Of a stretch of DNA of 46,874 nucleotides, positions 19,624-38,794 are shown piece after piece. Source of the stretch: a virus; the IMG/VR virus record IMGVR_UViG_3300021959_000079, positions 1 to 46,874 of that record. The stretch is one strand, 5' to 3'. The translations under genes and the position numbers were made by a program. Under the pieces are notes generated by a model, which saw only the letters and a program-made list of their open reading frames with translations, was not told the origin of the DNA and searched no databases. Position 1 is the stretch's first letter. Every line of letters starts with the position of its first letter.

Positions 19624-19639
19624 TAAGTGAGGAAAAATT

Positions 19640-20341
19640 ATGGCATTACCAATACAGTCTGCACCAACTTATAGAACCTTATTACCAAGTTCTAATGAAG
19701 AGGTGAAATACAGACCGTTCCTTGTGAAGGAACAAAAACTTTTGATTCTTGCAAGAGAATCAGATGACCAAAAGCAACAGTTAGAGTCAGTAAAGGAACT
19801 GATAACTGCATGTACTTTTGGAGAAATAGATACAGATAAAATTGCAGCCGTTGACTTAGAATGGTTATTTTTACAAATCAGATCTAAGTCAGTAGGTGAG
19901 AACATAACGGTAAATCTGAAGTGTTCAGATACAGAATGTAACGGTACTGGAGAAATCCATATTGACATTGAAGGAGTAAAAGTGACAGGTGAAGCTAGTA
20001 ACGAACCTATAATGATAACTGACTCTGTAGGTGTCAACTTGAAACTTCTAACCGTTGATGGAGTCCAAGATTTGTTTGATAAAACACAAGACGAACAAAT
20101 CATTGGAGTACTAAAAGCAAGTATCGCAAGAATTTTTGATAATGAACAAATTTTTGAAAGGGTGGATATATCAGATAGTGATCTAAATGATTTTATAGAT
20201 AACCTAACAATTGATCAACTACAAAAATTGACCAATTGGTTTGAGAAATCACCTAAAATTAGTTTTGATGCAAGTTACGAATGTAACACATGTGGGAAAC
20301 AAAACACTCGTAGATTAGAGGGTATACAAAGTTTTTTTTAG
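19640..20341 (+). CDS. 26: Baseplate hub assembly protein gp26 (T4_baseplate family), with frameshift site at its end
   Basis: 233 aa (T4 gp26 is 208 aa). N-terminal PAPTYRTLLPS-type start (residues 3-17), then RPFLVKEQKLLILARESDD and LFLQIRSKSVGENI fit the gp26/T4_baseplate family. Four cysteines, C95-x4-C100 and C215-x2-C218 (YECNTCGK), could form one zinc site. The last in-frame codons are AGT TTT TTT TAG, so termination occurs inside a run of eight T. The -1 frame is open through this run and continues into gp51 (see 20332-20360). gp26 is a non-virion or hub-assembly factor in T4. Its place just before the tape measure is that of tail assembly chaperones in other phages. Confidence 0.85.
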   Translation: MALPIQSAPTYRTLLPSSNEEVKYRPFLVKEQKLLILARESDDQKQQLESVKELITACTFGEIDTDKIAAVDLEWLFLQIRSKSVGENITVNLKCSDTECNGTGEIHIDIEGVKVTGEASNEPIMITDSVGVNLKLLTVDGVQDLFDKTQDEQIIGVLKASIARIFDNEQIFERVDISDSDLNDFIDNLTIDQLQKLTNWFEKSPKISFDASYECNTCGKQNTRRLEGIQSFF

Positions 20342-20360
20342 TATGCCTCTCTCATGAGAG
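20332..20360 (+). promoter_or_regulatory. Candidate programmed -1 ribosomal frameshift site joining gp26 to gp51
   Basis: The zero-frame reading AGT TTT TTT TAG gives the heptamer T TTT TTT (20332-20338), a canonical X XXY YYZ slippery site one codon before the gp26 stop. Slipping back one base gives TTA (20338-20340) and then an open frame to 20535. A short hairpin CTCT-CATG-AGAG (20349-20360) begins 10 nt downstream. The first ATG in the -1 frame (20392) has no SD. Confidence 0.65.
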
Positions 20361-20535
20361 TTTGTATAACTATTACAACTCAAACTTTCAGATGATGCAA
20401 CACCACAAGTATTCGTTATCAGAACTTGAAAATATGATTCCTTGGGAAAGAGAAATTTACATAAATCTTCTCATCAAATACCTAAAGGAAGAAGAGGAGA
20501 GGCAAAAGGCTAGAGAAGCCAGAATGAAAAAATAA
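20338..20535 (+). CDS. 51: gp51-like C-terminal extension of gp26 (via -1 frameshift)
   Basis: In the -1 frame relative to gp26 the reading from 20338 to the TAA at 20535 gives 65 aa, for a 298-aa gp26-gp51 fusion. Protein-like sequence begins well before any ATG: VCLSHESLYNYYNSNFQ, then MMQHHKYSLSELENMIPWER and EIYINLLIKYLKEEEE. This resembles the short gp51 proteins of marine T4-like phages (T4 gp51 itself is 249 aa). The first ATG (20392) would give only 47 aa, lacks an SD and would drop the conserved-looking SHESLYNYY. Frameshift expression is therefore the better model. gp51 is a hub assembly catalyst in T4. Confidence 0.65.
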   Translation, partial: LVCLSHESLYNYYNSNFQMMQHHKYSLSELENMIPWEREIYINLLIKYLKEEEERQKAREARMKK

Positions 20536-20556: not shown

Positions 20557-20943
20557 ATGAGTGAAGCAGTAGAAAATAGAAATGAAGTAAACATCGATCT
20601 TGAGAAATACACCGATCTAATGTTAAAGTTAGACGATGCAAATGACAAGATCAAAGAAATGGAAAAACTAACCAAAGACCTTAAGGTTGCAGCTCTAGAA
20701 GCTAAACCTAAAGAGAAGTTCACATTTGGTTCTTTGTTTATGGATGACAATCATCTCAATGAGAAATCAATCATTGGATTTATATCATTCTTTATGATGG
20801 TGATCTTTGGTATCACTGATCTAGTCACAGGTTACATGGGACAAGATTTAGTAATCTCAGACACTATCTACACTTCCTTCGTGGTGGTTACTTTAGGTTC
20901 ATTCGGTATTGCAGAAGCTGGAAAGGCATTTGGTAAACAATAA
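20557..20943 (+). CDS. Two-TM membrane protein between gp51 and the tape measure
   Basis: 128 aa. Residues 1-50 are charged and helical (IDLEKYTDLMLKLDDANDKI), probably a short coiled coil. Two hydrophobic segments follow, about 71-93 (SIIGFISFFMMVIFGITDLV) and 103-122. The tail is AGKAFGKQ. SD is GAGGA, 9 nt from the ATG. Topology with two TM helices and a charged N-terminus would fit a holin, but a tail-associated membrane protein packed near the tape measure is just as possible. No family recognised. Confidence 0.6.
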   Translation: MSEAVENRNEVNIDLEKYTDLMLKLDDANDKIKEMEKLTKDLKVAALEAKPKEKFTFGSLFMDDNHLNEKSIIGFISFFMMVIFGITDLVTGYMGQDLVISDTIYTSFVVVTLGSFGIAEAGKAFGKQ

Positions 20944-38280: not shown

Positions 38281-38794
38281 CTTGAATCTCAGGGAATGCC
38301 TTTGATACAAGTTCTTTAGTTATGTTAGGGAAAGGATTTACTTTATCCTTTACCAAATCCATAAGTTCAGCTTCTTTAGATGGGATACCTTCTAGTAGTT
38401 GTATCCACATCGTTTCTCTTCTGACTTGGGGTACCTGTTCTGTTACAAAGTACTTGAACTGTCTTGTCTCTAATCTCAATGCAGTTTCACTCAGGTCGGA
38501 TGCAGGTGCAGTGTTGGAGTTATATGGTGTTTTACCTTCAGGCAATGTAGAAACAATCTTAGGATCAAATAACCATTGCAGTACTTTTTTTACTGCACCG
38601 TTTCTATCATTGAATACTCTCAGACCATTGACTGCTTTGTCTTTATCTTCACCTGCAACAATGTTTGCCTGACATAGTATTTCAAATACATCTGCATTAT
38701 GAGTAAGATTCTTCCTCTCAGTAATCAGTTCCATTTTAGGTTTATTAGGAGCTCCCTTTGGTCTCCCTCTACCTCTTTTCTTTTCTTCTATCAT
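38276..38794 (-). CDS. DUF6433-like protein with N-terminal AT-hook
   Basis: 172 aa. The first residues KKRGRGRPKGAPNKPK form an AT-hook-like DNA-binding segment. The rest (VFEILCQANIVAGEDKDKAV, GLRVFNDRNGAVKKVLQWLF, DPKIVSTLPEGKTPYNSNTA, TRQFKYFVTEQVPQVRRETM) matches the DUF6433 family of cyanophages: 'VFNDRN, ... LPEGxTPY ... FKYFV'. It may bind DNA or interact with RNase H, encoded just upstream in the operon (ATGA overlap). Function unknown. Confidence 0.65.
   Translation of the reverse strand: MIEEKKRGRGRPKGAPNKPKMELITERKNLTHNADVFEILCQANIVAGEDKDKAVNGLRVFNDRNGAVKKVLQWLFDPKIVSTLPEGKTPYNSNTAPASDLSETALRLETRQFKYFVTEQVPQVRRETMWIQLLEGIPSKEAELMDLVKDKVNPFPNITKELVSKAFPEIQV

Follow-up and report, generated by a model that had tools for sequence, protein, structure and literature searches.

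In phages lambda and P2, a single gene ahead of the tape measure gene gives rise, through a -1 shift near its end, to a short protein and to a long form with an extra C-terminal domain (gpG/gpGT and gpE/gpE+E', respectively). Tail assembly chaperones of the lambda, P2 and HK97 types diverge strongly. At the -1 frameshift of E. coli dnaX, a slippery heptamer is preceded at about 10 nt by a Shine-Dalgarno (SD)-like element and followed by a hairpin.

A review of 2016 described G-T frameshifting as widely conserved in long-tailed phages "except T4" (PMC5009743). T4 gp26 and gp51 are listed among the hub assembly chaperones, and gp51, although required, is not part of the particle (PMC3004832). 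Tail assembly chaperones of T4-like phages were identified by Vladimirov, Gautam and Davidson (2022, Virology 566:9-15, as cited in PMC10885494 and PMC12846349). According to these two citing papers, TAC-N genes of T4-like phages have known poly-T frameshift signals, and in some T4-like phages a short gene is accompanied by a fused long gene, without frameshifting. Since the chaperones and the poly-T signals are, as related there, already described, the core idea is in print and the locus reported here is a well-supported new example. The initial annotation had proposed a link of two T4 hub assembly genes to the G/GT system; our data support this link, which in view of the 2022 study is not novel. 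Possible additions to the earlier work may be an SD-like element upstream of the slippery site, for which we found no description at this site in the literature searched, and the extent of the survey.

The gp26 junction and its predicted products

The window, a stretch of 46,874 nucleotides from the IMG/VR virus record IMGVR_UViG_3300021959_000079, contains a gp26 gene (Table 1), whose ATG is preceded by the SD sequence GAGGAA at 19629-19634. Its product belongs to the PF12322 family with 178 bits against a curated cut-off of 24.5 (E 2e-52; PHROG 150, E 2e-56). Modelled with AlphaFold at high confidence (pLDDT 92), the short form finds matches among other hub proteins of the T4 type; fold and sequence searches of the PDB gave no relevant match and no solved chaperone. 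The gene ends with AGT (20330) TTT TTT TAG, and its heptamer lies within a T8 run (20332-20339), the sole one on the plus strand of the window. The in-phase heptamer had been described correctly, but it had been placed one codon before the stop, whereas TAG directly abuts it. Likewise, the -1 frame stops at 20535 as had been noted, but it is already open from 20314 and not exactly from the T run.

Table 1 Features of the gp26 junction and its surroundings in the window.
Feature	Position	Strand	Remarks
gp26 short form (TAC-N like), 233 aa	19640..20341	+	PF12322 / PHROG 150
SD-like GAGGG, presumed frameshift stimulator	20318..20322	+	9 nt 5' of heptamer
Slippery heptamer T_TTT_TTT	20332..20338	+	in phase with gp26
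-1 frame C-terminal extension ("gp51"), 65 aa + stop	20338..20535	+	PHROG 634, E 4e-28
Zero-frame stop TAG	20339..20341	+	heptamer immediately 5'
Possible stimulatory RNA hairpin	20341..20401	+	inner 10-bp stem 20355-20364 / 20381-20390
First in-frame ATG of -1 frame	20392..20394	+	without SD
Tape measure protein, 700 aa	20955..23057	+	PHROG 4200, E 3e-10; next but one gene

Across the junction, the -1 frame reads FF followed directly by LVCLSHESLYNYYNSNFQMMQHHKYSLSELENMIPWEREIYINLLIKYLKEEEERQKAREARMKK and closes with the stop at 20533-20535; the product from 20338 begins LVCLSHESLYNYY, and the junction peptide of the fusion contains GIQSFFLVCLSHESLYNYY. As had been claimed, this frame encodes a gp51-like protein before any ATG is reached, and its product matches PHROG 634, a baseplate hub assembly catalyst. 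Its first eight codons contain no start codon, and a TTG is found in frame at 20362. The observation that the first ATG of this frame would remove conserved residues also holds: initiation there gives only 47 aa without the conserved first 18 residues. The long form (TAC-NC like) would comprise 19640-20338 plus the extension, that is 233 + 65 = 298 aa. PHROG 150 itself (282 positions) also matches the -1 product with its positions 237-281 (E 5e-5), which gave a first hint of fused members in this family.

In-phase NNT TTT TTN occurs seven times in the window ORFs of at least 100 aa, and only the case at the gp26 junction lies at an ORF end; together with its in-phase presence in all 149 distinct junctions of relatives (see below), this argues against a chance occurrence. 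Another of these heptamers, ACT TTT TTT with its codon at 38583 in the ORF 38322-38672, lies 29 codons before the ORF end and is probably due to chance in an AT-rich genome.

Regarding gene place and architecture, the locus resembles lambda and P2: the short and long forms share their N-terminal part, and the gene lies ahead of the tape measure gene. P2 E carries T_TTT_TTG where its record annotates the -1 shift, but the short form of the window is longer than the 91 aa of P2 E. Profile comparison with P2 E, P2 E' and lambda T revealed no sequence relation, which is weak evidence as single sequences of strongly diverging proteins were compared, and a Pfam scan of the C-terminal domain gave only chance-level matches such as Stealth_CR2. 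One small ORF (20557-20943, 128 aa) separates the extension from the tape measure gene; it has two hydrophobic stretches and a holin-like look and yielded no family match. Small ORFs are found at this position also in Mosig, Melnitz-3, phiM7, RHph_Y68 and OLIVR5. The cyanophages viewed lack one, and a large ORF directly adjoins the junction gene there.

Judging from the sequence, we consider it very likely that -1 programmed ribosomal frameshifting at T_TTT_TTT yields a short and a long protein from one gene. A ribosome positioned at xxT TTT TTT would slip, promoted by the upstream GAGGG and the downstream hairpin; both tRNAs would re-pair one base back, and translation would continue beyond the TAG. 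We infer the slippage itself, its rate and the ratio of the products, of which the short form would presumably be abundant and the long form scarcer. The place of the gene, the short/long pair, T4 genetics and the prior literature suggest a probable role of the two proteins as tail assembly chaperones that act around the tape measure while hub and tail tube are assembled, like lambda gpG and gpGT.

Conservation of the junction in relatives

We surveyed the junction in loci from named phages and IMG/VR, determining the frame relation by profile searches over stop-to-stop ORFs. No DNA-level neighbour of the window was found among known phages. A scan of viral contigs with the window gp26 as a single protein gave no match and a profile built from mixed non-marine relatives proved too diverged to scan with, while other profile scans succeeded. 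A tblastn search with the window -1 product retrieved 540 phage records, and most alignments begin at residue 1-3, flush with the shift site. In 168/168 loci the gp51 domain is encoded in the -1 frame with respect to gp26, and in none of them by the same ORF. The T run, its frame and the -1 coding, which the initial annotation had suggested to examine in relatives, are kept in every marine and in most other T4-like relatives. In the GenBank records of S-WAM1 (L004), ACG-2014d (L005) and S-PRM1 (L006), the C-terminal domain is unannotated, and gp26 of S-WAM1 is annotated with a truncated start.

The 149 distinct junctions all carry T TTT TT(C/T/A) in phase (T TTT TTC in 86, T TTT TTT in 47 and T TTT TTA in 16), and the zero-frame stop follows 0-1 codons past the heptamer in 136 of them. 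Elsewhere in the same gp26 ORFs, in-phase NNT TTT TTN occurs 23 times in 34,919 codons. The codon 5' of TTT specifies Ser, Asp, Asn, Ala, Gly or His, and its third base is invariably T. The first Phe codon is invariably TTT, although TTC makes up 27% of the Phe codons in these ORFs, and where TTA (Leu) changes the amino acid, the heptamer pattern is retained. From codon usage and without correction for the tree, the invariant T wobble and the invariant TTT have log10 P values of -34 and -20; among 54 divergent representatives (<50% identity across the last 60 residues) the probabilities are about 10^-12 and 10^-7, again not tree-corrected. Given the T-ending wobble, the invariant TTT and the TTA cases, the conservation of the junction exceeds plain protein conservation.

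Downstream of the site, codons 1-17 of the -1 frame show a mean heterozygosity of 0.36, 0.27 and 0.57 at codon positions 1, 2 and 3, respectively; the peak at position 3 is the mark of protein-coding constraint before the usual first ATG. Within 54 nt, the -1 frame contains a stop in none of the 149 junctions, whereas the other two frames do in 149 and 143. Thus, the downstream frame encodes a conserved protein from the site onwards without a start of its own.

The most plausible alternative has the C-terminal domain made as a small protein in its own right, either from its own start (TTG 20362 or ATG 20392) or through reinitiation after termination at the gp26 stop. This is how GenBank annotators usually place gp51, and a start codon in the -1 frame lies within 15 nt of the stop in 26/149 loci; in the KVP40 type, D482, RHph_Y68, Ps15, phiM7 and S-CRM01, the gp26 stop overlaps a -1 frame ATG (TAATG/TGATG). 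Such a start near the stop is, however, absent in the other 123, in 107/149 codon 18 or 19 is the first ATG, inside conserved sequence, and an SD-like 4-mer precedes that ATG in only two of the 149. An ATG with its own SD at the SHESL start, which had been named as evidence against frameshifting, was not found as a rule. Moreover, a separate gp51 would not explain why the heptamer is invariant and preceded by an SD-like element, the conserved coding begins flush with the slip site, and in T4 the domain exists only in fused form (gp51). We therefore consider an independent start improbable and reject it on conservation.

Still less probable is a fusion that arises through transcriptional rather than ribosomal slippage. 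The T8 run, found in the window and likewise in 29/149 loci, could permit slippage of the polymerase. In 102/149 loci, however, the run has just six T before a C or A, on which the polymerase is not expected to slip, and the codon phase and the SD-like element indicate the ribosome. Although homopolymer runs are typical indel sites, a sequencing indel or gene decay that split an ordinary single ORF can practically be dismissed, refuted by the conserved -1 relation in all 168 loci, including isolate genomes and mostly with T6 runs, and by purifying selection on both sides of the junction. Programmed ribosomal frameshifting thus remains the reading supported by the conservation of the junction, in line with the interpretation of the initial annotation.

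Candidate stimulatory elements

The relatives carry, as the counterpart of GAGGG in the window, a purine-rich element of the GAGG/GGAG type, 7-9 nt ahead of the heptamer. Its pairing to the anti-SD exceeds that of synonymously resampled sequences with a z of about -12 (about -6 in the 54 divergent representatives), and EG, KG and QG dipeptides elsewhere in the gp26 gene show no comparable SD-like bias.

On the downstream side, the fold predicted for 20339-20404 of the window has -15.2 kcal/mol (z -3.2 against dinucleotide shuffles). In relatives, 48-nt stretches that start 2-20 nt past the heptamer show a modest gain in folding over the synonymous null (mean z -1.1 to -1.6, standard error 0.2), an effect that fades farther out, and stems with a 5' arm 8-31 nt past the site are in excess. 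RNAalifold detected no common structure in 148 gapless junctions. The shapes vary by locus, and an Rfam search returned no frameshift family but only chance-level matches. Overall, the SD-like signal is strong, while RNA structure is modest and its shape is not conserved. The arrangement of a heptamer, an SD-like element at similar spacing and a downstream hairpin is like that of dnaX; the heptamer here consists of T instead of A, and the downstream structure is weak and variable.

Paralogous genes in T4 and the spread of the junction

In T4, genes 26 and 51 lie next to each other and are transcribed divergently; both products match PF12322. Among 18 genomes scanned, only T4 has two genes of this family, and the other 17 have one each. 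On PHROG 150 (282 positions), T4 gp26 covers positions 14-235 and gp51 13-280, and the gp51 C-terminus also matches PHROG 634, in agreement with profile comparison. On this sequence evidence, T4 gp26 and gp51 are mutual paralogues, and their coverage together with the PHROG 634 match identifies gp26 as the short and gp51 as the long form. It follows that the marine "gp51" corresponds to the C-terminal extension only and that T4 gp51 is the counterpart of the frameshift product, which refines the equivalence to T4 proposed initially. Like the window, T4 has a short (208 aa) and a long protein (249 aa) that are homologous, but it makes the pair from two separate genes without a frameshift. Instead of the slippery heptamer, T4 gene 26 has GAG TTC TTT GAG, and its product ends three codons past FF (C-terminus FFELL). 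A tblastn search with T4 gp51 matched 1339 records, mostly T-even-like.

These relations would explain the long-unclear T4 gp26 and gp51 as two forms of a conserved tail chaperone pair and provide a natural contrast between frameshifting and gene duplication for setting a protein ratio. They also imply an annotation correction for hundreds of cyanophage and other marine genomes, in which gp51 is a fusion fragment and sometimes unannotated.

The heptamer and the -1 domain were also found in KVP40-type Vibrio phages, Menderavirus, Emdodecavirus and Pootjesviridae, of which one junction has T TTT TTG, as well as in the freshwater phage S-CRM01 and other environmental loci. In Ackermannviridae (Vi01, SS9, VAP7, D510 and IMG/VR relatives; L011, L178, L173, L174 and L180-L199), the -1 domain is kept, while T TTT TTN is replaced by ATT TTC, GTT TTC, GTT TTT or CTT TTC, where by codon pairing only the A-site codon could re-pair well. 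Kuttervirus loci mostly have no ATG near the junction either. We slightly favour a history in which SD-stimulated -1 frameshifting is the ancestral and, outside the T-even branch, near-universal source of the tail chaperone pair in T4-like phages and was lost in T-even phages by duplication into 26 and 51, while Ackermannviridae exchanged the heptamer for another element and retained the -1 relation.

The slippery heptamer and an overlapping TAATG or TGATG occur together at L176 (3325-3333), L009 (3831-3839), L172, L010, L008 and L177. Such loci could produce the C-terminal domain as a free protein in addition to the fusion.
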